A stretch of DNA of 64,000 nt, from the NCBI GenBank assembly GCA_032622095.1, contig CP136068.1, positions 132,935,989 through 132,999,988 of the forward strand. Reading direction: 5' to 3'. Position numbers and translations under genes: made by a program. How positions within the stretch are numbered: position 1 is the stretch's first letter; each line of letters opens with the position of its first letter. The notes beneath the pieces are model-generated. The model saw nothing but the letters and a program-made list of their open reading frames with translations, ran no database searches and was not told the origin of the DNA. Of this stretch, positions 18,997 through 63,417 are shown one piece after another. The stretch is from Siphonodentalium dalli. Its lineage: Eukaryota > Mollusca > Scaphopoda > Gadilida > Siphonodentaliidae.

Positions 18997-19044
18997 ATTC
19001 CATGTAAACTTTGGTCAAGTATTATCGGAAAACGGAATCAGAAA

Positions 19045-32012: not shown

Positions 32013-32048
32013 GTATGGCACCGGCGTGTTCGTTTTGGGGTTAACGGA

Positions 32049-32115
32049 ATGGACCGTCGCATGCATCAATTCGGGACACTGTTGTTTTTACTGACGATTG
32101 TTGGACAATCTGCTG
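32049..32115 (+). CDS. Cys-loop receptor, exon 1 (signal peptide)
   Basis: The ATG at 32049 opens MDRRMHQFGTLLFLLTIVGQ plus SA, with an Arg-containing start, hydrophobic core and small residues before the cut: a textbook secretory signal. It ends G|GTGAGT (donor at 32116) in phase 1, which fits the phase-1 acceptor of exon 2 at 41215. The inverted duplicate at 14641-14707 keeps reading frame, start and donor, which argues for selection on this exon. The ATG was chosen because it is the first one giving a signal peptide. The link to exon 2, 9.1 kb away, is inferred from phase and from the need for a leader. Confidence 0.7.
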
Positions 32116-33054
32116 GTGAGTTCATGTTAAATTCAATTCAATTGATCATCATGACAGTGATATTACACATTATATCAAATTGGGATACATATGTACAAAA
32201 AGCATGTACATGAGTTATTATTAATATAATGCAAATATGATATATAATGTACTTTTGTTGCTTTTAGCGATGGTAGTAATAATACTATACAGTAATGTAT
32301 TTATTCTCTGTTGTCACGTTAGCGGGGTTTATGTTATTAATACAGCTCAGCCTCAAGAGGAACTACACAAGTTTATTACGTGGTAAGAACATTTGGTATA
32401 TATGAGATTAGCCCTCTCGTAGCTCAAGTGTTTGTTTTGAAAGATGACTGATATATAAGATGCCCGTTATTTAACTTTTGTTTAATTACAGGGCATGTAT
32501 CAAATTCACACCGCTGAAAAACAAAACACTATTGAAAATAAACCGAACACAGTGGGTGGGTTTGGGGTTCAAATTTGCAAAGCCAACCAAATGCTTCACC
32601 CAAGAGGCCTAAGCCCATACATGGCCAACAAGTTATTTCACCATATGATTCGAGAACTTATATGTACATACATGTACACCCACAAACTCACTCACTCATC
32701 CGTCAAAACCATCGATACGAAACCAGTTGGCTGTTATCCATCTGTACGATCTACTAAATAATACTACTTCAAATCCATATTCCCCATTTTTGTTTGGGTA
32801 ACTAAGTATATATAATATTTACATGTAGCTGTTGTTTATTTTGTAATTCATGATATATGTGGTATCCTCCAGTTCCATAAGTAATGGACGGAGTAATAAA
32901 CTATTTTGATTCTGGTTTATTGGGGTTTATCGTCTCTTCAGCTATAGGTCACATGACGACGTTGACAAATTTAAAGGTGTATGAAAGACCGCGCAAAGTG
33001 TTAGCTTCACTGAGAACTAACACAATTACACGTAGAAGCCACAGCCTTGCCCTG
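32116..33054. other. intron 1, first part
   Basis: Homology to the 13.86-14.64 kb region continues to about 32610. The open frame at 32495-32761 crosses the end of that homology and is not conserved as a frame, so I do not call it. Confidence 0.45.
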
Positions 33055-33255
33055 ATACGTGGACCCGATTTCCTTCCCTGTGCATGAATTAAAAATTCGC
33101 GCTTATCGGCATTAGAACCAGCCTCGCCATCGACGATATATATTCGCGTAATACCTTACCAACTGGTCTACCCGGTCCAGGGGTCCTCTTCAAAATTAAT
33201 GGACTTCAATGATTTATGAATATGGTGAAGCCACGTATGATCTTCAAACTCCAAT
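33055..33255 (-). mobile_element. tRNA-derived SINE, copy 2
   Basis: Minus-strand copy of the element at 11238-11440, sharing GATCATACGTGGCTTCACCA upstream of the tRNA part. A box AGACCAGTTGGTAAG and B box GGTTCTAATGCC are clearer than in copy 1. It lies in intron 1 of the receptor gene. Confidence 0.75.
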
Positions 33256-33445
33256 GGGAACGTATGATTTTTTTCGAAATGTTTTCAATTTTCAAGTTTA
33301 TCTCTCCTTATCAAAATTGACAAAAGAGACAATTACATATATAATACATGTAATAGCATAATGTGATGATATTCATCAATGCATGAGCTTGGAAGCAATT
33401 TTGTTTGTTTTGCACAGCTCTGGTCGGAGTCTTGATATGTAATCA

Positions 33446-33510
33446 AACCTTGAAATAGGGTGTCTGTCATTTGCAGAATGAGGTCCCCAGAGGGTAAATT
33501 TAGTGATGAA
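33446..33510 (+). repeat. partial copy of a palindromic element (family Q)
   Basis: CTTGAAATAGGGTGTCTGTC through TTTGCAGAATGAGGT and CCCAGAGGGTAAATTTAGTG matches the left half of the palindrome at 40521-40643. Confidence 0.7.
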
Positions 33511-34207
33511 AGCCACTTTCTTTTACGCTGCCCTCTGTACACACACTTAAATTCTCGCCTCCTGAATTATATTCCAGTTTATATTTCTATTATACTGATG
33601 AAAATAACAATTATGCACTGATTCAAATAATGTCATATCCACATCAGTTAGCAAAATTCCTTTTTGACGCCTTTTTGAAAAGAAAACAAATTGTCTTTAT
33701 AAATAACTCTTGAAATAGTAAACTCCTACTATATATATATTATATCTCACTTGACTTTCTCGCATTCTGATTGGCTGCAAACTGCTATATCATTTTACCA
33801 TAGTACCCCAGTAGGATTCCTACATGCCTACTATTCTTTTTTCTATTTATAGTAACAAACTCATTTCGTGAAATCGGGTTGCTGCCTGCATGAAGATACG
33901 GCCAATTGAAACTAATACCTTGTACAATACTTGTTGCAATATCGGTATACCATTAGAATTATTGGTGAGTTGTAATGATCTTACAAATGTCTGATCATAT
34001 CAAGTCTATGTATTTAATAGTTTGTCCGTTTAGTTGGCAAGCAGCCAGTCCTAATTTTGTAATGCCAGTGGACGTCATTTAAAATGTCCTTTTCCGTTTT
34101 AATCGAAGTTTAGCAAGTTAACTTCTAAAATTTCGCCAAAATGTCTTTGCTAATGACGTATTTATAGAAATTAAAAAAATGAACGAATCATGAAGAGAAG
34201 CTGTTAG

Positions 34208-35109
34208 ATGTAACTAATAACATAGGTATGTTCCCCTGCCATCGTCATATATGTAACTAATAACATAGGTATGTTCCCCTGCCATCATCATAGATGTAAC
34301 TAATAACATAGGTATGTTCCCCTGCCATCATCATAGATGTAACTAATAACATAGGTATGTTCCCCTGCCATCATCATATATGTAACTAATAACATAGGTA
34401 TGTTCCCCTGCCATCATCATAGATGTAACTAATAACATAGGTATGTTCCCCTGCCATCATCATAGATGTAACTAATAACATAGGTATGTTCCCCTGCCAT
34501 CATCATAGATGTAACTAATAACATAGGTATGTTCCCCTGCCATCATCATAGATGTAACTAATAACATAGGTATGTTCCCCTGCCATCATCATAGATGTAA
34601 CTAATAACATAGGTATGTTCCCCTGCCATCATCATAGATGTAACTAATAACATAGGTATGTTCCCCTGCCATCGTCATAGATGTAACTAATAACATAGGT
34701 ATGTTCCCCTGCCATCGTCATATATGTAACTAATAACATAGGTATGATCCCCTGCCATCGTCATAGATGTAACTAATAACATAGGTATGTTCCCCTGCCA
34801 TCGTCATAGATGTAACTAATAACATAGGCATGTTCCCCTGCCATCGTCATAGATGTAACTAATAACATAGGTATGTTCCCCTGCCATCGTCATAGATGTA
34901 ACTAATAACATAGGTATGTTCCCCTGCCATCGTCATAGATGTAACTAATAACATAGGTATGTTCCCCTGCCATCGTCATAGATGTAACTAATAACATAGG
35001 TATGTTCCCCTGCCATCGTCATAGATGTAACTAATAACATAGGTATGTTCCCCTGCCATCGTCATAGATGTAACTAATAACATAGGTATGTTCCCCTGCC
35101 ATCGGCATA
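34208..35109. repeat. 43-bp minisatellite, 21 copies
   Basis: Unit begins ATGTAACTAATAACATAGGT, continues ATGTTCCCCTGCCATC and ends ATCATAG or GTCATAG. Copies 2-11 are mostly the ATCATAG type and copies 12-21 the GTCATAG type, so variants are segregated in blocks. Near-identical units indicate recent expansion. There are no spacers, so it is not CRISPR. Confidence 0.95.
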
Positions 35110-35684
35110 AGATTGCCGTAAATTGTAAAATCTGCGAACCGATTTCCAAAATTCACGGTAATTAAAAATGTGACAAAATCAGACACAGTAATTGTGTGAC
35201 GATTGGCACCAATGTTCGATATAATATAATAAATAATGAATGTCTTGTCGTTGACTATGCCAAAATGCAATGTAGTTGTCCGAGAGGGAGAATAGTCAAC
35301 TCCAAGTCATTCATTATCTATATAATATATATATATATATGTAAATGACCATTCTCATGATATAATTATATTCGTTTTCCGATATACACGGATGAACGAT
35401 TAATCCCATTAATTTCCAACGCAATGCCTCTTAACATATCATTTACATAATATAAGTGGGACTTAAAGGCCCCATGTGGTCTGGTGCAATATCACTATTT
35501 GTCCATGTAATAAATGAATTTATTATATACTTGCCCATGAATTATAAGGTTTTAGCAGTGAGATATAAGTGATATCCTACTCTAGAGTGATCTCCCACTA
35601 GTGAGTGATATCAGCTTGAAATTTCTGATGTATTGAGATTCATTGGGGGTTATAGACAAGTAACTAAAGTATATAATAAACAGA
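35110..35684. other. intronic sequence, no gene seen
   Basis: Contains an AT dinucleotide run near 35320-35340. No motif-bearing open frame. Confidence 0.5.
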
Positions 35685-35837
35685 ATATCCACACGTTTTC
35701 AGTGGATATGGGTTAAATCTCATTCGTGATGACAAAACATTTGAATTTCCACACGTGGCTAAAGCCACTCGTGGAAATTCAATGCTTTGTCATCACTCAT
35801 GAGATATAAACCATATCCACTGAAAAAGTGTGGATAT
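35685..35837. mobile_element. 150-bp palindromic hairpin element
   Basis: ATATCCACACGTTTTCAGTGG ... CACACGTGGCTAAAGCCACTCGTG ... CCACTGAAAAAGTGTGGATAT: the arms pair over their whole length with few mismatches. This is the structure of a hairpin MITE. No second copy is in the window. Confidence 0.7.
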
Positions 35838-36500
35838 CCTCTATGTATTGTGGGTGCACATGTCACGTTAACAAAAGATTATCTCTCTCTTATATCTCTG
35901 TATATCTACCAACGATGGATTACCTCGATATATCACGACCGGAAGTGATCAGATTGTTTATGGTTGACTACTGTGGGTAGTTCATATATTCTCTGTGGAA
36001 AACATCATCAGATATTGATCATAGAGAACATAACACAACTGATTAACAAGAAAACCATAGTCAGAAATGGTAACGCCCTAAAAATCATGTTAGACATATA
36101 TAAAATGTATTGGTTTCAGGAATGCAGCACCTCAGGATTCCATAAGAACAACTAGTTCTTCAAATTATTACAACGTCTACTACGGCTTACCACTGAATGT
36201 TTCTCATTCGCCACACCAGAAAGCCTCTAAATGCAGACCAAAAATCTACTAATCTGATTAAATACACTCCCGATACTTCGCAATACGACCTTTAGTCTGC
36301 ATCCCAACTGAGACATATATTATCAGCAATATATATATATCTTTATTCCTCCATATAATGAAGAGCATATATATAAACATTATAAATAAATTGAGAACAC
36401 AAATATATCCTGCATGCAGGAATTTGGCTATACAATATAGAGGGTTATATAATTTGACTGACAAAGACAAATACGAACATATTTGAGGGCATATAAGTAT
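35838..36500. other. intronic sequence, no gene seen
   Basis: No motif or repeat recognised. Confidence 0.45.
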
Positions 36501-36529
36501 GCATACCCTCACGAGCACCGGCACGATCA

Positions 36530-36660
36530 CACATCCGCACACTCACATACACGCCCACCCTCACACACATACATACACATACATACACACATACATACAT
36601 ATACATACACATGTATATACTCATATATACATATATATACGAAAATATACATGAAAACAC
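36530..36660. repeat. CA/CATA microsatellite region
   Basis: Imperfect run of CACACATACATA and ATATAC units. Overlapping open frames on both strands up to 118 codons are compositional artefacts. Confidence 0.85.
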
Positions 36661-37257
36661 ATATAAATGCGCGCGAGAGCGCAAATGCACGTACACAGCC
36701 GCGCCAGAAGTTACATACTGCAACAATGAGACATCCGCGAATACATACATCCTGCAAAAATGTTACACTAAAGGTAGCTCCGTTTGGTGACGTTTTATTT
36801 ACAAAGCTCGACATCAGTGGACGTGATGGTCGCAACTGACTTTTGCGCTCTTAGATCAACAGTTTATGTTTACCCTTAACATATACCTGTTTAGAGAAAA
36901 ATAGTACACACTTATTGTTCAGAGTATCATACACATTGGCTGTTCACTAGTGAGCAGTGAGTGTCGGCTGGTGGCGAGCATCTGCAGGATGGATTTTGAT
37001 GGACAGTGTTGATATGAATGTCAGTCAGGACATCTGATTATGGATATGGTTGTTCGAAGTTGTAAAACTCACTCTCAAAAAAATTGAATTTGAATCTATT
37101 GGATTGGAGTCACTTGGCAAAACACATTCCCTGTAAATGCCTATCAAACTTCAGTCAACGAAATCAGAGTGGTTTGAACATGAGGTCAGAATTTCAAATA
37201 TTTTATTCAGTTCTTGTGTATATCATTGGTAAAATTATCCAACCGATGGGCATCGTT

Positions 37258-37350
37258 TTAAGTGTTGTGTTGTTTTGTTGTTATGTTGTTATGTTGTTTT
37301 GTTGTTTTGTTGTTATGTTGTTATGGTGTTTGTTGTTATGTTGTGTATGT
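37258..37350. repeat. TTGTT-type simple repeat
   Basis: Alternating GTTGTTATGTTGTTTTGTTG units. Noncoding. Confidence 0.8.
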
Positions 37351-37509
37351 GTTGTGTTGAGCTCGTACCCGTCCGACATGTATCGCTAACTCGCTATTTG
37401 TGCATGTACATTGTGGAAATACATGATTAATATGATGCTAATGCTGATGCTGATGAGTGAGATATTCACTAAATGTCTCCAACTAAAATTGTTTCTCTTT
37501 GATCAACAG

Positions 37510-37620
37510 AAGAAACAACACTACCGCGGATGACAAGCAAAGCAGCAGCAACAACATCAGCAACAACAACAACATCAGCAACAACAACAACAACAACAAC
37601 AACAGCAGCAACAACAACAA
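37510..37620 (+). CDS. candidate Thr-rich optional exon, copy 1 (111 nt, phase 1-1)
   Basis: Bounded by acceptor TTTGATCAACAG and donor GTATGT. In the phase dictated by exon 1 it is open and reads EETTLPRMTSKAAATTSA followed by Thr-rich sequence. Its length is divisible by three, so inclusion would insert a mucin-like, potentially O-glycosylated stalk between the signal peptide and the ligand-binding domain. Copy 2 at 39058-39120 keeps both splice sites and the frame. Against it: CAA repeats are open in several frames by chance. Confidence 0.35.
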
Positions 37621-37791
37621 GTATGTTAGTGTATACAATATTCACAATGTCCAAGTTATACCGTGGTCCATACATAAATAATCACAAAAAACGTGGTGAT
37701 AAATACATTTGATCAAGGATTATATAAATGCTTCCCGAGTTATTTCAGTGGCCATTTCATATCAGTATAAGTTATTTTATTGTAATGTTTA

Positions 37792-38128
37792 TACATGATT
37801 GTGTGCCTTATAGGATTATGGTATATTATACATGATTGTGTTCCTTATAGGATTATGGTATATTATACATGATTGTGTGCCTTATAGGATTATGGTATAT
37901 TATAAAATGAGTGTGTGCCTTATATGATTATGGTATATTATACATGATTGTGTGCCTTATAGGATTATGGTATATTATACATGATTGTGTGCCTTATAGG
38001 ATTATGGTATATTATACATGACTGTGTGCCTTATAGGATTATGGTATATTATACATGAATGTGTGCCTTATAGGATTATGGTATATTATACATGATTGTG
38101 TGCCTTATATGATTATGGTATATTATAA
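37792..38128. repeat. 37-bp minisatellite, about nine copies
   Basis: Unit TACATGATTGTGTGCCTTAT + AGGATTATGGTATATTA, with minor variants. A single copy survives in the second duplication unit near 39300-39335. Confidence 0.9.
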
Positions 38129-38385
38129 AATTGGTGACCAGGCTCTTGGAGGACATTTTGGATTGTCTCACCGAGGATCATAATGGTTCTAAGAGGATAT
38201 AATCCGCAATACCCACCACGTGCCAGGTCATCATTATTTTATTATACCGAATAACAGTATGTATCTACTTGTACGATATAACGGGTTATCATCTACAACA
38301 CTATATTGCATACTAGCTGAAGCAGGCGCCCATCGGGAGCCTTTATTCAGCATCGGAGAAGCCAGCGGTATCAGCATAACAATGT

Positions 38386-38995
38386 GTGTTAGGGGCCTGC
38401 GGTATCATCATATCAATGTGCGCTAGGGGCCTGCGGTATCATCATATCAATGTGCTAGGGGCCTGCGGTATCATCATATCAATGTGCGCTAGGGGCCTGC
38501 GGTATCAGCATATCAATGTGCGTTATGGGCATGCGGTATCATCTTATCAATGTGCGGTAGGGGCCTGCAGTATCATCATATCAATGTGCTAGGGCCCTGT
38601 GGTATCATCATATGAATGTGCGCTAGGGGCCTGTGGTATCAGCATATCAATGTGCGCTATGGGCCTGCGGTATCATCTTATCAATGTGCGCTAGGGACCT
38701 GCAGTATCATCATATCAATGTGCTAGGGCCCTGTGATATCATCATATGAATGTGCGCTATGGGCCTGCGGTATCATCATATCAATTCGCGCTATGGGCCT
38801 GCGGTATCATCATACCATTGTGCGCTAGGGGCCTGCAGTATCATCATATCAATGTGCTAGGGCCCTGCGGTATCATCATATCAATGTGTGCTAGGGGCCT
38901 GCGGTATCATCATATCAATGTGCGTTAGGGGCCTGTGGTATCATCATATCAATGTGCGCTAGGGGCCTGCGGTATCATAATATCAATGTGCGCCA
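38386..38995. repeat. 34/31-bp minisatellite, about 18 copies
   Basis: Unit GGGGCCTGCGGTATCATCAT + ATCAATGTGCGCTA. Some copies lack three bases (TGTGCTAGGG). GC-rich relative to its surroundings. One isolated unit lies at 39628-39665 in the second duplication unit. Open frames across it (38386-38928) are artefacts. Confidence 0.95.
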
Positions 38996-39009
38996 TTGCC
39001 AGCGTATGA

Positions 39010-39640
39010 ACATACCCTAAATGTCTCCAACTAAAATTGTTTCTCTTTTATCAACAGCAGAAACAACACTGCCGCCGGCGACGAGCGCAGCAGCAACAAC
39101 AATAGAAACAACAACAACAAGTATGTTAGTGTAAACAATATTCATATATATGTCCAAGATATACCAAGTAGCATACATAAATAGTCACAAAAAGCTTGTT
39201 GATATATGTACATTGGATCAAGGATTAAATAAATGCCACCCGAGTTATTTCAGTGGCCATTTCATATTAGTATTAGTATAAGTTATTTTATTGTAATGAT
39301 TATACATGATTGTGTGCTTATACGATTATGGTATATTATAAAATTGATGACTTGGCTCATGGAGGACAATGTGGATTGGTTCACCAGGAACATAATGGTT
39401 CTAAGGGGATATAATCCGCAATACTCACCTCGTGCCAGGTCATCATTATTTTATTATACCGAATAACAGTATGTAATTTACTATGTATCTAGTTGTAAGA
39501 TATAATGTTTTATCATCTACACCACTATATTGCATACCAGCTGAAGCAGGAGGAACAGGATTTGCGTGCCCGCCCGAAGGGCGGCACGAGGACGGTGTGG
39601 GCGGGGGCCTTTATTCAGCATCGGAGGGGCCTGCGGTATC
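39010..39640 (+). repeat. second unit of the roughly 1.5-kb tandem duplication
   Basis: Colinear with 37470-38395 but with only one unit of the 37-bp minisatellite. Divergence is moderate, so the duplication is not very recent. Confidence 0.85.
39058..39120 (+). CDS. candidate Thr-rich optional exon, copy 2 (63 nt, phase 1-1)
   Basis: Acceptor TTTATCAACAG and donor GTATGT as in copy 1. In exon-1 phase it reads AETTLPPATSAAATTIETTT. It is 48 nt shorter than copy 1, exactly 16 codons, so the CAA expansion in copy 1 kept the frame. Both copies end in phase 1 and can join each other or exon 2. Confidence 0.35.
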
Positions 39641-40520
39641 ATCATATCAATGTGCGTTATGGGCCTGTACCCCATGTGTGCACTTCGCGCACATTTTGAT
39701 CCAATATAGAGTCTTTGTTCATCGGTGCACACATGTTGATCGTTTATATTATGATCTTCATAAATTCATTTTCATTATAATTACCATATTGTTTGCATCG
39801 TACATAGAGCACGCGAATGTATTTTGCTGCAAAAATCCATGGCTCAAATTCACACATTTGTTGCTTATATTCTGTTGAGTATAAAATGAGATAGTTACCT
39901 TATGTATGGACATGTGGTTTACATACAATTCTACACATAATTAAAAAACATGGTCCGATTTGACAATTTGACAATGTAATTTTCAGCTTACCAGGTAAAT
40001 ACAAACAAAATATTCTTGCAACCACCACCATTTGTATGGCACAACCATCGCAGGAATCCATCAGTATACATCAATTTACGTAGAAAACCACTAACATGCA
40101 ACAATCTTGATCATGTCTTAACTACCGGTTTTGGAAAAGAACGCAAGGATGTTCTTTATCAAAACCAATTTTTGCTACCCTGACTATACTTGCTCTTTGG
40201 TCAGTTGTGATAAGACAATCAATATTCATTTTTGATTAACCCCAGCGGTTTCGAGATCGTTTTCCTTGCTGAATTGTGATTGTGTGATAAAAACCTTGTC
40301 CACTATATTCGATTCGAGCTTCGCTAAAGGTTGGTTCGAACCGCATATAGTGCATTCGGTTAATAAATTAGAGATACTCTATATATTGAACATCTGCTTG
40401 AAATGAAGATGAAGTCTCATATAGAGTTTATGATATACTTCATATGTATTGAGACACTTAGAATGTTCTACAGACACGATTACTACAGCGTCAGGAATAG
40501 AACACGCTCTGTAAAACAAG
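39641..40520. other. intronic sequence, no gene seen
   Basis: A stretch at about 40245-40365 (TTTTCCTTGCTGAATTGTGA, AGTGCATTCGGTTAATAAATT) resembles parts of 42539-42679 and 43015-43160, so it is probably another decayed repeat. Confidence 0.45.
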
Positions 40521-40643
40521 TAGCATCCAAGCCTTGAAATAGTGTGTCTGTCATTTGCAGAATGAGGTTCCCAGAGGGTGAATTTAGTGATGCTACCCGC
40601 ATTCCGCAAATGACAGACACACTATTTCAAGGCTTGCTAGCAT
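40521..40643. mobile_element. palindromic element, family Q
   Basis: TAGCATCCAAGCCTTGAAAT ... CATTTGCAGAATG on the left pairs with CATTCCGCAAATGACAGACA ... CAAGGCTTGCTAGCATC on the right. A half copy lies at 33446-33510. Confidence 0.7.
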
Positions 40644-41214
40644 CAACAAGTACATGAATAAAACTAGATTTACTTTCTTCTTCTTTCCATTATTAATAAC
40701 TCTGCAATAATATGATTTCGTAAATCAAAACCATTGTTTTGTAAACATTACTGTTACAGTCGAATTACCGAAAAAAGTTCAATTAGTCCAATAAGATACA
40801 AATGTTTAATAAAAACACCAAAATGCCAAGTATTGAAAAAAAATATTCTGAAAATCATACATAGACTAACATATTTGATCTTTCTACACGATTAGCGATA
40901 TTTCTTGATAAATCACTGTAACATAATTGTTTACTTATTAACAATAGTTTTAACAAATACAATTTCTCGTCATGGGAGGACAGTACAGTCAATAACGAAC
41001 ATACGAACAACGTTTATCTATTTCTCCATGTTCGTCTTAGTGGTGACTTTTATATTTTTTGCATATTTACCCACAGCGACTGCCTTTGGTCCCTTTAATA
41101 AAGACGATTGAAGATGCTGTTAGGCATGCATTGATCGCACATGTCATCCGATCCGAAGGTCAATGTGTATTGAAATACTTATTGGTAATAAATATGTTTA
41201 CATCAAACCAACAG

Positions 41215-41354
41215 CAAATGCAACTGACCCAGTGGCAGTTGAAATGGAGTTACGAGCCTCTCTGTTCAACGTCTCTACATACACCAACGCAGTTAAGCCA
41301 GCAGCTACGATCACAGTCAATATATCCCTGGATCTCCGAGCGCTTCACGAAGTG
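41215..41354 (+). CDS. Cys-loop receptor, exon 2 (N-terminal helix and first strand)
   Basis: Acceptor CATCAAACCAACAG, phase 1, so the junction codon is GCA. It encodes NATDPVAVEMELRASLFN, then STYTNAVKPAATITVNIS and LDLRALHEV, ending GTG|GTAAGT in phase 0. The layout matches the start of nicotinic receptor ligand-binding domains: N-terminal helix, Y-N-x-x-V-x-P, then T-x-x-V-x-x-x-L-x-L. It has three N-glycosylation sequons (NAT, NVS, NIS). The 140-nt size is similar to exon 2 of vertebrate nicotinic subunit genes. An upstream acceptor at 41077 is in phase but leads to a stop at 41109, so 41215 was preferred. A MITE begins seven bases past the exon. Confidence 0.85.
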
Positions 41355-41361
41355 GTAAGTA

Positions 41362-41540
41362 TACAGTAATGCCCTAAATAATCGACTCCTTAACCACAGC
41401 ATAATTATGGGTAACTTTTCTGGATTTAGTCACTGAGAGCTTTCCGATGTATGGCAACAAGCCATATTTCCGACTAAATCCTGAAAAGTTACCCATAATT
41501 CTGCTGTGGTTAAGGAGTCGATTATTTACGACATTACGTA
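41362..41540. mobile_element. palindromic MITE, family M, next to a splice donor
   Basis: TACAGTAATGCCC left end and ACATTACGTA right end, with the TTACCCATAATT and CCGACTAAATCCTG blocks of the 8336-8552 copy. The centre is shortened asymmetrically. The left TA is at 41362-41363, immediately after the exon-2 donor GTAAGTA. Confidence 0.85.
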
Positions 41541-42538
41541 GTTGGTCTCAGAATTGGGCTTATTCGAGGATTAGTGCTTCAACGGTACTTTTCGACGAGG
41601 AATTTGATGGTGCCGGCTGAATTTTGAAGAAAAAAAATAGGGTACCCAAATTTGGCTTCTCTCATAAAATTGGCAACATCACAGCTTCAAATGATCTATA
41701 CATGCTCTAGCCATGCTTAGTATTAGTTGGTTGATCAATTCTGTAAACATTGGTTTGCGTAATCACAAGTTTCTGTCGATTTTTCAAAAAATCAGTCGGC
41801 ACTGGATTAAAAGTTACGTTTACAGACATGGCGATATCACACATTTCCATGTATCGAATATACGCGACATTTATGGCACATAATTATATTTTAAAATGTG
41901 AAAAATTCCGTAGCCTTGTCTATATATTACTGCAAGTTGTAACAACTGCGTGGTGATAGCTAACTGACTACCGCGCGTGTTACATACCTCATGTCTCTGT
42001 TAAAGTGTTTAAAATTTACTAGACTTCCCGCTGAGTTACTAACACCTGTGTATGACGAACAGGCATGAACAGAAAGCAGTCAGTCTTTCATCACACGATA
42101 GACGAGTTTCAAAGACACCAGATAGGTAATTGATCTAGATGATCCATTATCATTTTGCTAGCGGTTTGGGAGGGGTGTGATGTAGCAAGTCGGGGCCTGC
42201 TGTGTCAAACTTCCATGTAGAAAAGGAATTCATTCACACAGACTTTAGACTCGATAATCAAGCTGTGAAATGATGCACAATACACTCTCGATCATAACAG
42301 TTAATTTAAAGTGATGGTGAACAGATGTAGAAATTTATGCAATTTGTAATATATGTTTATCACATAATTTGCCCATAAAAGCAGTTTCATAATTATCGAT
42401 AAGAGACACGTTTAATATCAGCGCGTGCGATGACGTCACATCGTTCTTCAAATGACTTGCGATCGCCGCGGTTTTTATCGTTGTTTTCGATGGATATTTC
42501 GCATTGCTTTGCGTTTATTTGATCATGTGATAAAAAGT
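41541..42538. other. intron 2, no gene seen
   Basis: No motif-bearing open frame or obvious repeat. Confidence 0.5.
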
Positions 42539-42679
42539 ATCTCACACTCGTCCTATTTTATACGTAATTTATCAACCTCGTCCACTAAATTCTATTTGAG
42601 CCTCGGTAAACCTCGGCTCAAATCGAATTTAGTGAACTCGGTTGATAAATTCCGTATAAAATAGAAACTCATGTGAGAT
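42539..42679. mobile_element. 140-bp palindromic hairpin element
   Basis: ATCTCACACTCGTCCTATTTTA ... GAGCCTCGGTAAACCTCGGCTC ... TAAAATAGAAACTCATGTGAGAT: the arms pair along most of their length. Related fragments near 40250-40365 and 43020-43155 share the ..GTGCACTCGGTTAA end. Confidence 0.7.
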
Positions 42680-43155: not shown

Positions 43156-43556
43156 TTAACCCTTTATCCAACAGAACGGCCCTGTGCCAATGCATTCTCT
43201 TATATATGCGAGTCGACCATAGGTCGCCTCGCATATATAAGAGAATGCATTGGCTTAACACATATTAAAAATGATAACATTGTCAAAGAATGTAGAAAAA
43301 TATTATAAAAATTGTTAAAAAATGTAAGAAAATATTATAAAATTGTTAAAGAATGTAAGAAAAAATGGTAAAAAGTGTTTAAAAAAGATTTGTTTTAGGC
43401 CAATGCCTTCTCTTGTATATGCGAGGCGACCTATGGTCGACTCGCATATATAAGAGAATGCATTAGCACAGGGCATAACTGTAACCATCACAATGTGGTC
43501 AATGAACCGGTTCCAATGATATCCATATTTTTGTTTTTTGTTGGGTAAAGGGTTAA
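43156..43556. mobile_element. 400-bp TTAA-flanked element with two internal hairpins (copy 2)
   Basis: TTAACCCTTTATCCAACAGAACGGCC start and TTGTTGGGTAAAGGGTTAA end. It has the same paired 68-bp hairpins as copies 1 and 3, separated by a roughly 130-bp A/T spacer that contains an internal near-duplication (AAAATTGTTAAA.AATGTAAGAAAA). It lies in intron 2. The minus-strand open frame at 43315-43797 overlaps it and is not supported. Confidence 0.85.
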
Positions 43557-43671
43557 TAAATTTCGTGTATAATTGCGACTCATTAGATACCCTGTATATA
43601 CAAATTAAGAACATCGAAAAATAGAAGTAATTTATTCTTATTTTCATTACTAATGTGCCCACAATGACGAG

Positions 43672-44992: not shown

Positions 44993-45037
44993 GACATAGA
45001 ACAACAAGTTGTGAAGTTCCAAGCCTTCATTGGATTG
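44993..45037 (+). CDS. Cys-loop receptor, exon 3 (45 nt, loop D strand)
   Basis: Encodes DIEQQVVKFQAFIGL between acceptor TTTGCAG and donor GTGAGT, phase 0 at both ends. A 45-nt exon at exactly this place (aligning with DEKNQ..T...W) is a hallmark of nicotinic receptor genes. The Trp of loop D aligns with Phe here. It joins exon 2 (HEV) to give HEVDIEQQ. Confidence 0.8.
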
Positions 45038-52766: not shown

Positions 52767-53340
52767 AGGTGACTGAGATTCTGATTTGTTCAAATGGTGC
52801 CGCCAGGTCGAAAAGGGACCAAGCTTGGGGCGTAACCATTCCTGTCCATATTAATTCTTAAAACATTTTCTCAAGAATCATCGGGGCTATTTAGCTTATA
52901 TTTGGTATGGAGGGTCCTTGGGTGACAGGGATAACGATTTGTTCATATTGGATCACCGGCTCAAATAAGGGCGGAGCCAGGGACATAATCTGTTCTATCC
53001 ATAGTAATTCTCAAGAACCATCATGCATATTCAGCTTACAGCTGGTATGGAATTGAGTGACTGTGATTCACATTGGTTCAAATGAGGTCACCAGGTCAAA
53101 CAGTGGTGGAGCTAGGTTTATAACTCTTTCCCTCAATACTATTTCTTTCAACACCTTCTCAAGAACCATCAGGCATATTCAGCCTGTATTTGGTAAGGAC
53201 CCTTGGGTGACTGTTTCAGATTTGTTCAAATTGGATCACTGTGTCCAATATGGGCAGAGCCAGGTACATATTCTTAAAACAGTTTCTCAAGAGCCATCAG
53301 TCCTATTTGATGTAAACAGTATTTATTCCATATAATTCAA
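52767..53340 (+). repeat. degenerate tandem repeat, about 150 bp, four copies
   Basis: Each copy holds GGGTGACTGT.ATT..GATTTGTTCAAAT, a GTCACCAGGTCAAA block and TTCTCAAGAACCATCAG. Copies start near 52767, 52917, 53052 and 53203. Open frames inside are not consistent between copies. Confidence 0.75.
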
Positions 53341-55105
53341 ATATAGTGCATTTTACAAAATATGAAGCAAGAATATTGGTTGTATGGAGGGGATCCGACA
53401 TCAAGCATAAAGCTTATGGGGCTCGTTTCCGATTACGTGTAATAGGCCCACGCTGTGAGACTGATGGCATATTATTAGATAATTGTGTTCATAATAATTT
53501 TAGAAGATCGTTATTGGTATATATGTTACTCAACTACTCACAGTGTGGGATGGATCGATATATATATCAAAATGAGATTTTTAAATCTAAGTAATAGAAA
53601 GAAAATGATTGAAAATAGATTTAGTGAACGGAACGAAGTATAGATCTGCATAGACAAGAGTGTGAGGTGACATATCAAACATTTGGGTGAGTCTGAGTAC
53701 TATTTAGCCTACATGTATATATAGTATGGAAGGTCCTTGGGTTAGGTTTGTTAAAATGGGTCCGACCAGCCAAGAAATTGAGTTTTGGTGTTTAGGGTAC
53801 ATGGACATTTGGGAAGCATATATGTTTGAATGTGGTCGGCCTTTAAAAAAGGAAGAGGGCATGTAAGGTTGGAGGCATCACTTCCAATCTAAGGGGGATG
53901 TGCAAAGGAATTTTACGAACTTGGGAGTATGTTTGCTCCCGTTGGGAGGGGACATCATATGGACTATGTTGGGGGTCAGACTTGCATTTGAAAGTTTCAA
54001 GGTGGAAACTCCACTGCTCAACGGATACCATCTAGCGACGTCCCAGTTTAGAACTACTTAAGTTATTTTGACATGTTCTATCTGTTATAATTTTCAGAGT
54101 CCGAGTATTCTCAGTCTTTACAGTCAGGCGAGCGACTCAACGGTCATCAATTGACTATCTTCTACCACTGAGACCTCACATTATGCCAGTAGCCTTTTCG
54201 CCAACCCCTAAGAGTCGCAAAGCATTATATTATCTCAATCCGTGGTACCAAAGGCCACTTTATATTCATAATAATACACACTGCCTGATAGCACAGCCGT
54301 TTTTCCGCAAGCACCTCACTGTCTTTTAGTGGCTTCCCATGGTTTGCTTGGGTATTTGAATGAGACAATGAAAAACATAAAACAAATTGTGGTTGTTCAA
54401 GTTCCAGCCGGGTTTTGTAAATGGTCCATGGTGTCAGAGAAAGTTGAATATATCCCATATTTCAATTAAACGCCTAAAAATGTTAAAAGTATAAGGGGGA
54501 AATGTTGACATAGATTATGTTGAGCTGAGCTTGATCAATCTCATCCCATCCGGATAACCACCTTCAACAATGTTCAGCATGATGTCACTCGACCAATATG
54601 CCAAGTTTCATGCTTTAGATACAAAAGGCATGATTCATGCGATTCTTAAGGGACCCCGCTATGTGTAAGGATTCCGAATATGCATTGATGCCAGTTAGAT
54701 GTGAGAATATGGTAAAAGTTGCATGATAATTCCTCTCTGTATAATATTGACTCTGCGTGGTCGTGTTATAATATATATCCTAATTTGGCCCCGGAAACCA
54801 TTCCCACTGTTAGTAACCATGACATATGTGGACTAGCATAGGCGTAGCTATTGTTTCCATGAGGCGGCTTCGTCGTGTGATTGCAACGGCATAATTGATG
54901 CGGGGAGCGCATTGGATGGTGCGATATTAGCCCATGCAACATGACCTGGTGACGGACTAATCGCACAACAAAACGTTCAGACTTCTTGATGACGAACATT
55001 ATGAATCATTAACTTTCATTTCCCTCCCATGAGCTATAATCGAACCACTGCACGGGTGGTTCGTGTACCACATATGTATATACTATGCAAGTATTGTCTA
55101 AGTGG
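53341..55105. other. intron 3, no gene seen
   Basis: No motif-bearing open frame. No clear repeat was noticed. Confidence 0.45.
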
Positions 55106-55345
55106 ATTAACGCCAATAGTTCAGTAGGCGTGAACGGTTCTGGACGCCTGCCGATTCTTCAGTTCGCGAACCAAATATCGCGATCCCCCACTAAGCGCAA
55201 GCATCACAAGAGCAGACTCCAACTGTTCTAACTTGGATATTTATTCCCCAATAGTTCAGTACGAAACGTTCTGGTCTTCTTCCGATTCTTCAGCGCGATT
55301 CCCCCTACTGAGCGTAAGCGTCCTACGAGAAGACTCAAACTGCTT
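55106..55345 (+). repeat. tandem duplication, about 125 bp
   Basis: CCAATAGTTCAGTA ... GGTTCTGGACGCCTGCCGATT at 55112 recurs in altered form as CCAATAGTTCAGTACGAAACG ... CTTCCGATTCTTCAG at 55240. Both are followed by a CCCAC/TACTGAGCG/CAAGC block. Confidence 0.75.
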
Positions 55346-56029
55346 CGAACTTGAATCGGATAATGTTTTTGTCTATTCTGTAAATCGAAAATATGTCACG
55401 TGGAGCACGGTGTTCCAGTACTCAGCGTGTCTTCGCTGTCATCATAAATAAATTAGTTCGCAGCCCGCGGTGGTTTAATGTGAATTCACACAACATTGGC
55501 TTGTGTCGACTTCGCACCATTCGTGCGGTATACTAGTACTAGTACCAGTACCGTTCAGCTTGTCATACTTGTACACAATACCATGGCAGGGGTTCACTGG
55601 ATGGCTTGTACAAATGACTGGGCTAATAGTGTAAATAAAAGCGTCTTAGAACAATATTACTGAGCGCTATATAAAACCGCCATGTATTAATTGACATTAA
55701 TGTAATTTTGGTAACACACAATATCATGTATGTTGTGATAACGTGCATAGTATAGACAGTGCATGTTCGCACAATAGCGCATTGTCCTTCACAGGTCGGG
55801 TTCGTCCGAACCCATCGAACCCTAGCTATTTACCCCCATGTGGACTATCCTGATTCGCTGAAAACAATTAGGGCACTAATATGCGGATTTGCGATGGTTG
55901 AAAGGTATTGTGGGGCATATAGTACCAATAACATAATTTAGCCACAACACAACAGCAGTTATTTTATCATTATGGCATTTGGTATTTGACCTTTGTCCTC
56001 TGATCTTGAAATACAACTCCCCCATCGGA

Positions 56030-57500
56030 CATCACATCACAAAAGTGCTTCTATAACTAAGCATCCAATATGTGAAGTTTCATGCTTTAGAATAAACATA
56101 AACATATAGAATCGTGTTTATTTGAGCCTGATGGTCCCTTAATTCGGAGTTGGATCGTGACTTTTGTATTTGAATAGCAACAAGGCTCAACGGATTTCCA
56201 CAGTGGGCCTTTTTTTTTTTTTACTTTTCTCAGAATATTTTGCCATGGAAACCATATTTTATCCTGACACATGCAGCCATCCCAATCCAAAAAGTCCCAC
56301 TATAACTAAGCAACATATTTGTGAAGTACAGTGCTTAATAAAGTTAATAAAGTCACACAATCGTGTTTATTTTGGTCTGATGGTCTCTAAAGGGTAATGC
56401 ACCGTTACTTAAGTACTGCCTCAAATACTATAAAACTTAAAATGTGATTAAATATAAACTATAAATGTTGTGGCATGTTGGCTGTGATCGTCTTGTATCA
56501 AGTATATCATACCAAATTGAACTTGATGATGGTGTTCAAGTGTATTAAGAAATGGATAGATTTTATGACTGACACATGTGCTATGCGTAGCGGAATATGA
56601 GAAATATATAAAAAATATATATACAATTACCTTTTTCCAATGACCTTGACCTTAGCAATTGACCTTGACCCTATATGTACTATGGCCTATTCCATTTAAT
56701 GGACCATTATTGGCACTATGAGTTCACATCATTTCTTCAAACACAAGGCTCATCAGGTTACCAACAGGGGCTTTTTCAACTTTTCTCCAAATATTTGATG
56801 CCGTTGCCATGGAAACCGGATTTGATCGTGATACATGATCCCCCACCAAGGAACCTCCCTCCAAAACGTTTCCACTATAACTAAGCAACACATATGGTGA
56901 AGTGTCATGTTTAGTGCTAAAGTCACAAAATCATATTTAGTTGGTCTGATGGTCTCAGGGTAATGTGTCGTGACACAAATACATTAAAATTTAGTACTTA
57001 AAATGTGATTATGTATCAACTAAATGCTGTCACCTGTTGACAGTTACTGTAGTATACCAAATGCATCATATATAAAATTGAACACCGTGATTTATGCATT
57101 TATGGTGGGGGCTGCTCTCGAGACTAAGTCACTAGGGGTAGCAGAATATAAGACAATTACACAAAAATAGACCAAAATATCACATGTTTTCAATGACCTT
57201 GACCTTAGTAATTTACCTTGACCCTATATGTCATAGTGGCTCAGTCTGTTTGATGGACCATTATTGGCACTATGAGTTAACATCATTTCTTCAAACAGAA
57301 GGCTTGTTTGTTCTCAACGGTGGCCTTTTTCAACTTTTATCCCAATACTATTTGATGCCGTTGCCATGGAAACCCCATTTTATCATGACACAGAACCCCC
57401 CACCCGGGCACCCCCCTCCAAAAAGTTTTTCCTATGAATAAGCAACATATCTTTAAAGTTTCATGCTTTAGTCACTATAGTCACGATTAAACCCCTAAGG
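56030..57500 (+). repeat. 520-bp repeat (family W), three tandem copies
   Basis: Copies occupy about 56030-56400 (partial), 56640-56970 and 57190-57500. They share CCTTGACCTTAG.AATT, GGACCATTATTGGCACTATG, TTTTTCAACTTTT, GCCATGGAAACC, CTATAACTAAGCAACATAT and TTGGTCTGATGGTCTC. A fourth, inverted copy is at 47215-47545. Translated by chance, one copy reads LPWKPDLIV, which mimics a receptor motif, but the other copies do not. Confidence 0.85.
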
Positions 57501-57659
57501 GACTCCACTATCAACCCCGTGAGCAACTCATGATATGCCAACCATCGGAAACCTATTCATACCTGACATGTGCAGAGATATTGACGAAGACAATGTCGAA
57601 TTATACCACCTGGTTGACGGGACCAGAGTCACACCAGCCTGGACACCCTAAGGTATTAG

Positions 57660-57775
57660 TATAGTAGGCTCCTATAAAAGCTGTACAGACGAGATACGCA
57701 GAAGACCGAGAGATGTGTCCAGGCTGGATGTACCGGTATGTGTCGCCAACATGGTGAGTTAGTCACATTTTAAAT
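57660..57775 (+). promoter_or_regulatory. possible TATA box with first-exon-like donor
   Basis: CTCCTATAAAAGC at about 57668 is followed, about 85-95 bases on, by CCAACATG|GTGAGT. An inverted repeat, CAGCCTGGACACC / GTGTCCAGGCTGG, flanks the box. It might be a promoter of an unseen transcript or chance. Confidence 0.2.
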
Positions 57776-59440
57776 AGAGAAACTGCGGCATGATAACGTC
57801 TCCAGATGTGCGCCTTTTGTTTTATGAAGATGAGAAAGTGAATAATCATGCCGTAATGCCTCGGCCATGTGGTTTTGACGGTGGGATCTGGAGCTAATAA
57901 TACTATGGCCAGGTGGGAAATGTGGTTTCTCCCCTTAGTATGTGGTAGAGACTAGGGCCGAGATGGGAATATAATGTTCCTCCTTAGTGGTCCAACTGTC
58001 ACAACCTATGATAATACAAATCTTTCATCAAACAAAGGTTGGCGTCGCGGATTCCTTCCCTTGTGGTGCACATCTGGGTCTGATGGAAATTTACAAATGT
58101 GAGGGTCCTAACCTATAGATTATGATGTATCAACGGTTGTATTCATACTATACAACGCCCTGGACCACTTCAGGCTTGCGAATGCAGCAATTGTTTCTCT
58201 GCACATGGTCGGGTAGATAGGCGATTTCGGTCATAGAAGTCAAGGAGAAAACTGACTCAAGACAAATAAATTGGTTGACAAATCGATATTTGGCTGCTGA
58301 TATGCAGTTGGCGTGACAGTCTAGATGTACTGTTCGAGTGTCCGTGAATTACAACCTGGCTGGGTTCTGCCCCTTAAACTATCAGTAGACGGCACAGCCG
58401 TCCAGCTAAATTGTTACGGAACATTCTACTTTCCGGAAGTTAACGTAAAAGGGACGCCGTTCTGTTTTAAAGGTCCAATTTAAATTCCGGGGTGACCAGC
58501 TGGGGTGACATGTACATTGGCAGAGATCTCAGCAAAGAATCTGAGGGGGCTCACTCCAAAAGGATTAGATTTTATTTGGCACACTACCATTTATCGGAAT
58601 AATTAGTTTTTGGCTCGTGACATTGGACGCGTAATATAGTTCCGATGGATTTGCAGATTTGGCGGTTACGTGTTGCAAATTTGAAACCCCGTGTGCGTTA
58701 CACTGTGACCTTTTCAAATGTTTGCTGTCAATATTTTAATAAACTTTGGTATCTTATTATCTTATTATACTTTTACTTTTAATTCCACTGTAACAGTAAT
58801 GTTTACGCCACAACGGTTTTGACTTGCCCATTATTGTCATTTTGCTTTGTTATTACTCTCTATTTATTTGTAAGAGATTGGAGAGGGGTACCCATACGTA
58901 GGACATCAGTTGTCCTCCAATCACACTATCTGCATAAAAAAGTACGTGCCATCTCATACATTACGTATTGCATGATATATAGACGCAATCTTCTCGGTCA
59001 CAATAGTTTGGAATATCGGTTGAGTTGATGCTGTTTTGGACCGAGTCCCATCCCGTTAATCTTTCGTTTAAAAGACGTACTGCATTTACCTGTGGGGCCG
59101 GGGACATTCAAGTGGACCAATGAATATGATTAATCGTCCGACATTTCCCTGATTGATCTGTCTTCAAAATGATATAGCATTTACCCTGATAGAACGTGGT
59201 AAAGTTGTGATACGATCGTTTAATATATTGTTTACATAGATTCTCTGATGGTGCGACAAATCGAAATTCTCTGGAAAACAAGGCTTTCTTTAATTATAAA
59301 TATCGTTGCTTTGACATTCGACGGACTTCTGATATACGCATGTTTGATATCGTCATGCTTGGGAAAGGCTGTCCTCTTATGTTCATGCACGCAAAGCGTC
59401 CATTTGACCTAATCGGAAGACATAGGCAAGATTAATATTA
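57776..59440. other. intron 3, no gene seen
   Basis: No motif-bearing open frame or clear repeat. Confidence 0.5.
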
Positions 59441-59441
59441 T

Positions 59442-59591
59442 CCATCATGACCTGGGATGTGGGACGGAAAAATCGCACCGAGGGTCCAGATATTTGGGCC
59501 GGACACGAGGCTTGCCGATCGCGAGTGTCCGGACGAAATATCTGACCCCAAGGGTGAGATTTTTCCATGCCCACATCCCAGGTTATGATGT
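59442..59591. mobile_element. 150-bp palindromic hairpin element
   Basis: ATCATGACCTGGGATGTGGG pairs with CCCACATCCCAGGTTATGAT. Further in, AAAAATC.CACC..GGGTC.AGATAT pairs with ATATCTGACCCCAAGGGTGAG, and the centre pairs CGGACAC with GTGTCCG. A single copy. Confidence 0.7.
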
Positions 59592-60641
59592 ATCATTTTT
59601 CTCCCAACACAAGAGCCTCATTCAGCTTTTGTATACCAATCTTTGACACATTCCAGTAGCTTCGTAACGGTACATCTTGTGAGAAACCTGATGCGATATT
59701 CGTTATTATCTGGGATCATGCTGTAAAAGGTGTATACTGTAAAACAAAGCGTGTTACCCGTACGCACATTAGTGTGAAATCGATAGGGGCTTGAGAAAGC
59801 GACATTAATGTCCATATCGGTACCATTTTAAAGGAAACAGACAAATGATATTTAAACGTGTTCGACAATTTATTGCAACGATGATAACAACTGTTCAAAT
59901 GAGGAACTATTTCGTTCGTCATTTGTGAAGCGATTACTGTTTATGTGTTTAGAAATGTGCAAGTGATGCCAGTTTCGCTTTGGGCCTTCCGTTTGATGGA
60001 ATGTGTTCTCACAACTAGTCGTTTATATTGCATGTTATGCAAATCTGCGTTTGCAAGTGAGGTTGTTGAAGGTTCTTCGTGTTTAACGCGTTGGAGTCGT
60101 ATTTCCATTTGTATTAGCGTCCACGAATTCGTCTGTATTTATTTACTCGAAACGTGATTAAGCGTAAATGGTTGGTCGCGATTGTTTTAGCTGACACCAA
60201 CATCATGACGGATTGTTAAACAAGTTCCGGCTCTGAATTAAATAGGTAAAGTAGTCACGTGGGTAGGGTGAGATAGCTGGTCACGTGTTGGGCGAGACAG
60301 GGAAATCTCACCCAACTATCCACACGAGCTGCCTGTGCTAAAATGTGTCGGGGTGGGAGAAAACTCCCGTCCACGGTTCTGGGCGTAACGTCTGTCACAG
60401 AAGAGTAACGGATGGGTCAAAAACAACATTAACCCAACCGATATCCAAATATGGTGAGGACCGTGAAGACTTCATATTAGACTTGATCGACATATCGAAT
60501 GGTATTCATTTCAGGAGAAGACAGTAAGGCAGACCGACATGGCTATAAGACACTATCTATATTATATTTTACTGTTATTGTACTAATCATGTGATATATT
60601 GTAAATTATCCTGTCCTATCAAACGTTTACCACGAATGCAG

Positions 60642-60745
60642 ACATGGGAAGACTCACGACTGAGTTGGGATATGTCGAGCTCGGTTGGTGTCATCTATGA
60701 TTCGAATGGTGAGGCATGGACGCCGCCGGTTATACATAGCAACAG
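60642..60745 (+). CDS. Cys-loop receptor, exon 4
   Basis: Between acceptor TACCACGAATGCAG and donor G|GTAAAT, starting in phase 0 and ending in phase 2, it encodes TWEDSRLSWDMSSSVGV and then SNGEAWTPPVIHSN. W-x-D-x-R-L-x-W followed by W-x-P at this spacing is the family signature between strands 2 and 4. Exon 4 of vertebrate nicotinic genes is 110 nt with the same phases. This one is 104 nt, two codons shorter. In loop A the aligned segment WTPPVIHS has Pro for the usual Asp and Ser for the usual Tyr. It is too short to stand out as an open frame and was found from the motif and flanking splice sites. Confidence 0.88.
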
Positions 60746-60771
60746 GTAAATATGCGTTGGTTGCTGGTTTA

Positions 60772-61145
60772 AAGTGATGTGAAACACTCCGGTGTGGTGA
60801 TCAAATATACATGGACAATAATCTTGTTCAAGGTAGTAATTTGTACATATATTATATCCAAATTGACAACACACATAGTCATTCTTATATATTAATTAAA
60901 TGCAGTGACTCTCGATGGCGAAATAATTTACGTTAGTTTATCGCCGATAGAATTGTCCCGAATCGAGTAGTAAATATTTACAATTGAGCGTAGTTCAGAC
61001 GATGTTTTCTATGGAGTGGTATGGTCGATTTGCTTCCGATTTTGGGCAATGTTAGTAGAATGCTACATTCCTCCAGTTGGAATAGCTTCAGAATACTAAG
61101 TTATCAGTTTCATTCACCAGAACAAGTACATAATATGACTTTAAA
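60772..61145 (+). repeat. dispersed 380-bp repeat, copy 2
   Basis: Direct repeat of 43672-44055, starting 27 bases after exon 4, so it lies at the start of intron 4. Confidence 0.85.
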
Positions 61146-62029
61146 TGTATAATCATATATAATGTATTTCACGGAACGAATCTGAGATTCCGCATCGTCC
61201 CAGTCGGTCTTTGGCGATCGAAAAAAAGTCTCTTTATTGTGTAAATGTTTTTGTTGATAGGTTAAACTTGTTTAGGTTGTACGTGAAGATCCAGCAAACG
61301 GTGTCAACTTGTCATTTCGTATAAATGTGATCTATTATAGGGTACGTTCATACGCTGGCAAGTTTGCACAGTATGTTTTTGCGGGAATTTCGTCATAGAA
61401 AACCACATTGTGCCAGAATATGAACGGAACCGTGCACATAACATGTATCTTCACCAAAGCGAACGGCATGATAAGTAACATTTATGTAGTTCCACTTGTA
61501 ACAGTGCTACTGGAATGTTCCTTCAAATACCTGTACGATTTATTCTTGCCAGAAAATTGCATATTTACAGGCAAATTCCGGTAGCATCGTTACTAGTGGA
61601 ACTACAGAGATTTTACTTCGCAGGTAGTTAGCTATGGCACAGATGCACTTTATGTGCTTGTTTCCGTTCATGTTATGGTACCATATCGTTTTCTACGACA
61701 AAATACCTGCAAACCATACCGTGCAAAATTGCCAGTGTATGAACGCACCCTTATACATACAAGGTGAGGCTGCGTTATATACGTAATAATTACGCCCACT
61801 TAATTGTCTATGGTACTTTGCCATTAATTTAATTTCCAACAAGCTACTGTATTCAAAATAGGATAAATACATTAGGGTGGAAGTGAACGTTGGATTAGGA
61901 ATTTTGCCACGAAAACAGGTGAAAAAGGAACAACGTCACTATAATGTTCCTACCATTTAGTGATATTTCCAAATTAAATGTAGTTTTATGTTGATATTCT
62001 TTACTGATATGCAATTATAAGGAATAAAC
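61146..62029. other. intron 4, no gene seen
   Basis: Contains a loose long inverted repeat. GGGTACGTTCATACGCTGGCA at 61340 is mirrored by TGCCAGTGTATGAACGCACCC at 61731, with ATTCCGGTAGCA and TGCTACTGGAAT further in. It is probably an old palindromic element of about 410 bp. No coding signal. Confidence 0.55.
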
Positions 62030-62310
62030 ATCATTGATTGATTGTTTATTTGCAAAGCCAACATTTAAGTTGGAACATAGCCAAACATTATTAAGTATAT
62101 TAAGTAATCTTTTTCATTGCCAATTTAATAAATATGCTCAGTCTTTTCAGTACGCTCATGTTTTCAAGAGAAAGTAGTCCATGGCATTTCTTGCGGTTCG
62201 GATTATCCCAGTAATATTTTGGAATATTTAATTCGCGTAAATCTTTCAGCTCTTGGCATATGATCATAAAATGGTACTCATCCCATGGCCTATTGCTGCA
62301 CAAAACGCAG
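62030..62310 (-). mobile_element. 3' fragment of LINE family A (copy 4)
   Basis: The minus strand encodes DEYHFMIICQELKDLREL, NIPKYYWDNPNRKKCHGLLS and LKRLSIFIKLAMKK, the C-terminal end seen in copy 1. A short tail containing CAATCAATCA follows. 5'-truncation leaves only the last 80 codons. Confidence 0.85.
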
Positions 62311-63147
62311 TTTAAATCATTACTATCTCTTCATTGTGTCCATATATTCTTTTCAACTTGCAACTTATGGTTGCATGTTCGTATTTTCAGTGAGAAGTTA
62401 GATAAATGGGTTGGCAAATGTACTAGATATCGGTTCATTTTAATCGTAACATAATTACACATTTAAATACATTTGTGCTGATCACGACCCAAATATATTT
62501 TACAGTGTAATTATATATCATGAAATGAAGATTATCTCTTACATAAATAAATTGTCTCATGTCGATATGCGATGGGCATGCATGAGGATGCCATAGGCAT
62601 ATAGTTATTAAGTCACACACATGAAATACCAATTGGGAAAATAATCTTCGGTTATCAAGTTAAAACTGAAGAAATCGCGTTATGAAAAATGAAAACAAGT
62701 TAACTGAATGCACTAAGTAGCGCGACTGCTATGTTGACTTCATCGAAAGGTTGTATTTTATTTTATTTACCAGTGAACCGATTATCCCGCAGAACATACA
62801 AGTAGAGTGATGTAGTCTGTTCATGCATGAAGTCCGATATTTATGTTTTCTAAACTGAACCTCTCATAAATACGGGACTTGTGAGCCTCGTCTCTCGTAT
62901 GGTAAATACATTTATTATATGCTTGGCTATAAAATAGTGCGAAATTACCGAAAAGTAGATATGTGTATGTATCTCTTAGAAGCCACAGTGAAGTACGATT
63001 TCGTTATTTCACTGTAGGTTTAGTTATATTTCACTGCAGCCTGTCGGTGGTTTACGCAAGCGAAAAATTTGAAGACAAATTCTATAACTGCATTACTAAC
63101 AGTTGGTTTTACTGTTATATAAAGTCAATTATTGTTGTACGTTCCAG
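62311..63147. other. intron 4, last part
   Basis: No gene seen. The frame that is open from 62963 into exon 5 is intronic readthrough before the acceptor TACGTTCCAG at 63147. Confidence 0.5.
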
Positions 63148-63417
63148 TTTTGGGTCGCTAACATTGCTCAGAGCACCAGCTGTGCCAATAAAGATCAGTT
63201 CCAGCGGAACAATGGAATGGAAGTTTCTGGGAAACATCATGACGTCATGCGAAATGGCGGCTAACATTTTCCCGTTTGACGATCACCAATGCGAGATACA
63301 ATTAGAGGTTGTTGGTTACAATTCTGATTTCATCAAGATCGGAGTACCAAACGGATTGGATACTGGCAGCTTAAGGTACAAATATATTCCTCATTTACCA
63401 GACATTCGTAAGCAGGA
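63148..63417 (+). CDS. Cys-loop receptor, exon 5 (Cys-loop), 3' border uncertain
   Basis: Phase-2 acceptor, so exon 4's last two bases plus T give Ser, then FGSLTLLRAPAVPIKISS, GTMEWKFLGNIMTS and CEMAANIFPFDDHQC. The two Cys codons at 63248 and 63290 enclose exactly 13 residues with the canonical FPFD, which defines the family. LEVVGYNSDFIKI follows, where the loop-B Trp of nicotinic receptors aligns with Val. The exon may end at C|GTAAGC (63417) or earlier at AAG|GTACAA (63375). An in-frame TGA at 63420 means splicing must occur before it. The remaining ligand-binding domain and membrane helices lie outside the window. Confidence 0.9.

Follow-up and report, generated by a model that had tools for sequence, protein, structure and literature searches.

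In this study, we describe a gene of the Cys-loop receptor family in the scaphopod Siphonodentalium dalli, whose genome comprises 2.2 Gb in 9 contigs. The gene lies in a stretch of 64,000 nucleotides, C8:132935989-132999988 (C8 being contig CP136068.1), which we refer to as the window. Five of its exons are found within the window, and the remaining two, located by comparing the DNA beyond the window with the region behind a paralogue, start 4.0 and 6.4 kb past the window end. The complete gene has seven exons over 38.8 kb and a product of 437 amino acids:

32049-32115, plus strand: exon 1, 67 nt, start codon and signal-peptide-like MDRRMHQFGTLLFLLTIVGQSA (by eye), phase 1 end, donor GTGAGT
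41215-41354, plus strand: exon 2, 140 nt, start of the ligand-binding domain (LBD), phase 0 end, donor GTAAGT
44993-45037, plus strand: exon 3, 45 nt, phase 0 at both ends, DIEQQVVKFQAFIGL
60642-60745, plus strand: exon 4, 104 nt, loop D Trp and WTPP segment, phase 2 end, donor GTAAAT
63148-63375, plus strand: exon 5, 228 nt, Cys-loop CEMAANIFPFDDHQC, phase 2 end, donor AAG/GTACAA
63376-64000, plus strand: start of intron 5, containing the in-frame stop 63419-63421 at which the naive open reading frame (ORF) ends
C8:133004037-133004329 (window-equivalent 68049-68341): exon 6, 293 nt, pre-M1, M1 and M2, phase 1 end, donor GTAGGT
C8:133006401-133006837 (window-equivalent 70413-70849): exon 7, 437 nt, M3, loop, M4 and stop, preceded by CTTACAG

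Exon chain and protein homology

Exons 1 to 5 translate in a single frame. In 32116-63000 we enumerated every stretch that is open between an AG and a GT and measures 140, 45 or 104 nt. There were 10, 32 and 15 of these, respectively; the averages over 20 first-order Markov surrogates, which served as the chance baseline, were 5.0, 34.7 and 10.9. In-phase joining alone is thus weak evidence, within chance, since such open stretches are common in the surrogates too, and the exon chain is accepted because of homology and paralogues rather than phase agreement. A protein search of the spliced exons, as proposed in a preliminary description of the window, placed them in the Cys-loop family: the five-exon protein matched Neur_chan_LBD with an E value of 1.4e-24, and exons 2-4, whose lack of homology that description had named as an adverse outcome, matched it on their own (E 6.3e-10, 39.3 bits, cut-off 26). 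The five-exon match covers model positions 7-157 of 216 only, and the remainder of the domain was therefore expected elsewhere. With exons 6 and 7 joined, the 437-amino-acid protein matches PF02931 (E 2.2e-24, 86.6 bits, cut-off 26) and, above its cut-off, the membrane-region model PF02932 (E 1.1e-7); M3 and M4 were recognised in exon 7 by eye, and this exon shares 70-86% identity with its counterparts in four paralogues. The Cys-loop CEMAANIFPFDDHQC has its two cysteines 13 residues apart with FPFD between them, and both cysteine columns are conserved in all 40 aligned rows.

The lengths of exons 1-4 and their phases 1, 0, 0 and 2 had been given exactly in the preliminary description, with GT/AG flanks present, and the start of exon 5 at 63148 is upheld. 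Its account of five exons over 31 kb, the last of about 270 nt, encoding an LBD-sized product, was wrong: exon 5 measures 228 nt, the AAG/GTAC border after 63375 being common to the five genes of the cluster described below and exon 6 joining there in phase. The stop at 63419-63421 is therefore intronic under this model, and what fits in the window is only part of a seven-exon channel gene, the earlier gene model being incomplete because the window ends there. Introns 1-4 measure 9.1, 3.6, 15.6 and 2.4 kb, so that of the range first proposed, 3.6 to 15.6 kb, the maximum stands and the minimum does not. The case shows that reading raw sequence can detect a gene whose exons mostly fall below ORF-length detection, and that its failure points were the window edge and an intronic in-frame stop mistaken for the gene end.

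Two alternative assignments were rejected. Firstly, a donor GTAAGC at 63408 would leave exon 5 in phase 1, when exon 6 requires phase 2, and among the four other cluster genes a similar site is found only in gene A; the donor after 63375 agrees on both counts. Secondly, exon 1 lies within a 178-nt inverted repeat and could have been a stray repeat. The exon 1 region has five matches in the genome, however, all within one 240-kb stretch of C8, and all five correspond to the first exons of the cluster genes.

With its end at the stop near 63420, the locus could also be read as a secreted, channel-less ligand-binding protein of the acetylcholine-binding protein (AChBP) type, a kind of protein that excerpted literature records in gastropods, and the frame does continue from exon 5 to the stop at 63419-63421. 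However, such a product would end ahead of loop C, and the tail after the exon 5 donor varies among the genes, with a 30-nt minisatellite in two of them (C and D). Moreover, exons 6-7 are in phase in all five genes and their product matches the membrane-region model above the cut-off, and we regard an AChBP-like protein as scarcely credible at this locus.

The five-gene cluster and its selection

When the exons were used as DNA or protein queries, the full set of seven turned up in unchanged order in five genes, A to E, all within one 360-kb stretch of C8. The window gene is gene B. Gene A, which spans 81 kb on the minus strand, enters the window with its first exon:

14641-14707, minus strand: gene A exon 1, MDRRMHQFGTLLFLMTAVGQSA; gene A exons 2-7 lie left of the window

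Genes A and B stand head-to-head with their first exons 17 kb apart (window 14641-32115), and intron 1 of gene A measures about 53 kb, the gene spans in the cluster being about 36-81 kb. When aligned to gene B, the exons measure 67, 140, 45, 104, 228, 293 and 437 nt in all five genes, which also have the exon 1 donor in common. The donors are GT in all 24 introns of genes A, C, D and E, and in 22 of these 24 the aligned border also shows an AG acceptor, the exceptions being exon 2 of genes D and E, where gene D has CAG 3 nt further in and gene E has AACAG 27 nt upstream; the frame is kept in both.

The cluster genes are under purifying selection. The ratio of nonsynonymous to synonymous substitution rates (dN/dS) over the whole frame is 0.33-0.47 in 10 of 10 pairs, at dS values of 0.15-0.26, and over codons 1-330 the pairwise ratio is 0.21-0.38. 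Long, repeat-holding introns and some weak splice sites might suggest a cluster of pseudogenes kept merely as DNA, but at this divergence a 437-codon frame open in five of five copies, together with the dN/dS values of the ten pairs, makes such an origin very improbable. Five farther relatives, 60-66% identical over exon 5, are found at C3:58.6 Mb, C7:152.8 Mb and three places near C8:159 Mb, and two to five further exons were detected beside each of them.

The locus very likely holds a functional, intron-rich subunit gene of a Cys-loop receptor (pentameric ligand-gated ion channel) of nicotinic descent. It belongs to a cluster of five copies, and the five farther relatives lie elsewhere in the genome. 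Its transcript would be spliced as in the seven-exon model, and five subunits would assemble into a channel. Some observations weigh against this interpretation. By our own, unscored judgement the exon 5 donor GTACAA and the exon 6 acceptor TTAAG match the consensus poorly, and the position of the exon 2 acceptor varies among the cluster genes. Codons 331-400, the M3-M4 loop, have a dN/dS of 0.57-1.38, and this loop is therefore under little or no constraint. Moreover, the PF02932 match spans just 54 of 233 positions, corresponding to the M1-M2 part, and the alignments of the binding loops considered below may, at low identity, be a residue or two off.

Repeats over 5' splice sites were seen at three exon ends in the family. 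In gene C, eight tandem 54-nt units (L021, C8:133033421-133033984) begin with the end of exon 2 and run into intron 2, each carrying the exon 2 3' end and a donor, which is GTAAGT in seven units and GTAGGT in the last; the second unit contains an in-frame stop, so that only the first donor yields the full frame. One relative (L043, C8:159123216-159123510, minus strand) has tandem copies, with a 55-nt period, of the exon 4 3' end and donor, and in gene E (L036) the end of exon 4 is doubled. In addition, the minisatellite of genes C and D (L010, L012) runs from the exon 5 donor on and extends the naive ORF with repeats like NYIPYVSGRH.

Pocket residues and kinship with other receptors

Residue columns were located by alignment to alpha7 in an alignment of 40 receptors, with residue numbers and roles that we take to be those of the nicotinic receptor pocket and pore. 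All seven family rows keep the loop D Trp55 as well as GER, with Glu at -1' of M2, and all seven have Ser for the loop A Tyr93 and Val for the loop B Trp149 and lack the YxCC and Tyr of loop C. The LBD is therefore nicotinic-type, as first described, by descent but not by ligand, the principal-face acetylcholine-binding residues being missing. Judged by these aligned positions, the family is predicted not to be an acetylcholine-binding alpha-type subunit of the nicotinic acetylcholine receptor (nAChR), for which YxCC, Tyr93 and Trp149 would be expected, and its members are probably cation channel subunits with a principal face to which acetylcholine does not bind. Cation selectivity would stem from the Glu at -1' of M2, and because Tyr93, Trp149 and the loop C YxCC are missing, the family may have a ligand other than acetylcholine or a role as a non-alpha partner subunit. 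Loss of the pocket alone does not distinguish the five-gene family, since pocket losses are common in this genome: the CC pair is absent in all 22 sampled intronless rows, and the loop B Trp is missing in 5 of these 22 and in four of six other receptor fragments.

It is possible to relate the family to the cephalopod chemotactile receptors (CRs), as a member or sister group that has retained its introns. In a search of solved structures, octopus CRT1 is the best match of the 437-amino-acid protein (1.6e-24, 89.7 bits), followed by nAChR beta-4 with 81.9 bits. The structures CRT1 and CRB1 (PDB 9e6b, 8eis, 8eiz) share with the family nicotinic descent and a few motifs, among them WTPP and FD(D/E)H(Q/T)CEI, and all three are without Trp149 and YxCC. 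However, the five-exon protein gave the reverse order, nAChR beta with 54.5 bits standing above CRT1 with 48.9 bits. A maximum-likelihood tree (40 rows, 386 of 589 columns) likewise gave no support to a CR kinship drawn from the best database match. It joins the family to six other receptor fragments of the genome (94/96; with four of them 98/94), which were taken as exons of multi-exon genes, each match lying in an open stretch of about 190-260 amino acids with Cys-loop and M2, and it places CRT1 and CRB1 beside two intronless receptors (94/74). Forcing the family and the CRs together costs 16.9 log units, and the single clade is not rejected at 0.05 by the approximately unbiased (AU) test (p-AU 0.058). 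The tree carries long-branch flags on CRB1 and five intronless rows, and for two of the fragments fewer than half of the columns are occupied.

Moreover, the CRs, which likewise form an expanded family in octopus, are reported to be intronless in excerpted text of PMC11526382, whereas the window gene has seven exons. The CRT1 match would seem to owe more to a pocket for acetylcholine lost in both than to close kinship, and we find membership of, or sister status to, the CRs improbable. It is a slightly broader speculation, and an unlikely one, that the cluster represents an intron-bearing, non-cephalopod subfamily of chemoreceptors, in which cation channels derived from nicotinic receptors, having lost the pocket for acetylcholine, would have turned to environmental ligands via local duplication, either from the CR stem or by a parallel route. 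CRs were unmentioned in the gastropod and bivalve nAChR literature among the matches listed. If the ligand were environmental, the cluster would add another instance, this time with introns, of nicotinic receptors that have become chemoreceptors.

The intron-rich subunit gene of nicotinic descent, which we prefer, is an ordinary gene, a member of a known and hugely expanded family. Genome-wide, the Pfam LBD model matched all 150 scored places out of 822 candidates, most of the matched places being, as judged by eye, one open frame across the whole domain, and Cys-loop receptor genes are very numerous in this genome. This abundance agrees with the expansion in lophotrochozoans, for which the excerpted text of Jiao et al. 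(2019, PMC6896357) describes intronless copies, tandem arrays and a separate intron-rich class. The intron-rich mollusc nAChR genes of that text share with the window gene more than two introns, the company of numerous intronless copies within one genome, an arrangement in local arrays and membership of a large lophotrochozoan expansion. The window family, for its part, is without the principal-face aromatics and vicinal cysteines, and its genes span about 36-81 kb. The present locus extends this very large known expansion by an intron-rich cluster of receptors lacking the acetylcholine pocket.

Two further receptors invite comparison. Insect nAChR alpha6 also has an exon 3 of 45 nt, or 15 codons, according to the part of PMC5111602 at hand, this being the sole usual exon size confirmed from the literature. 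Alpo4 of Alvinella, as described in excerpts of PMC10338036, is likewise a lophotrochozoan nicotinic-like orphan in which the loop C vicinal disulfide is absent, but it retains key aromatics, including the loop B Trp, where the window family has Val.

Introns and other features of the window

The introns had been described as packed with mobile elements. Satellite arrays are present in them, among others at 34205-35109, 37789-38127 and 38361-38993, together with a dispersed repeat in intron 2:

43330-43530, plus strand: dispersed repeat, 40 copies scored of 1611 candidates, all with at least 97% identity over at least 197 of 201 bases

Of 26 ORFs of at least 80 amino acids lying wholly in introns 1-4, six were tested and none matched the transposon protein families, one of the six having a match below the cut-off to an unrelated family (16.4 bits against 25). 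The description is therefore supported in part, by the repeats but not by the six ORFs tested. The array at 34205-35109 in intron 1 is a very even satellite of 21 copies of a 43-nt unit, with a 98% match.

Some features lie outside the gene. A reverse transcriptase fragment at 11949-12242 matches PF00078 just above the cut-off (3.1e-7). An open frame of 367 amino acids runs from stop to stop at 18997-20100, and two ORFs at 30043-30414 and 31042-31329 (minus strand) are alike by eye; neither the long frame nor the two ORFs had a Pfam match at 0.01. Two copies of a block of about 32 nt (tttatcgcgac...cggctgcat), 126 nt apart, were seen by eye upstream of exon 1, at 31854-32012. Finally, 1769-3283 contains short repeats in tandem (period about 22 nt) that face an inverted array about 1 kb off, an arrangement that could possibly fold back on itself.

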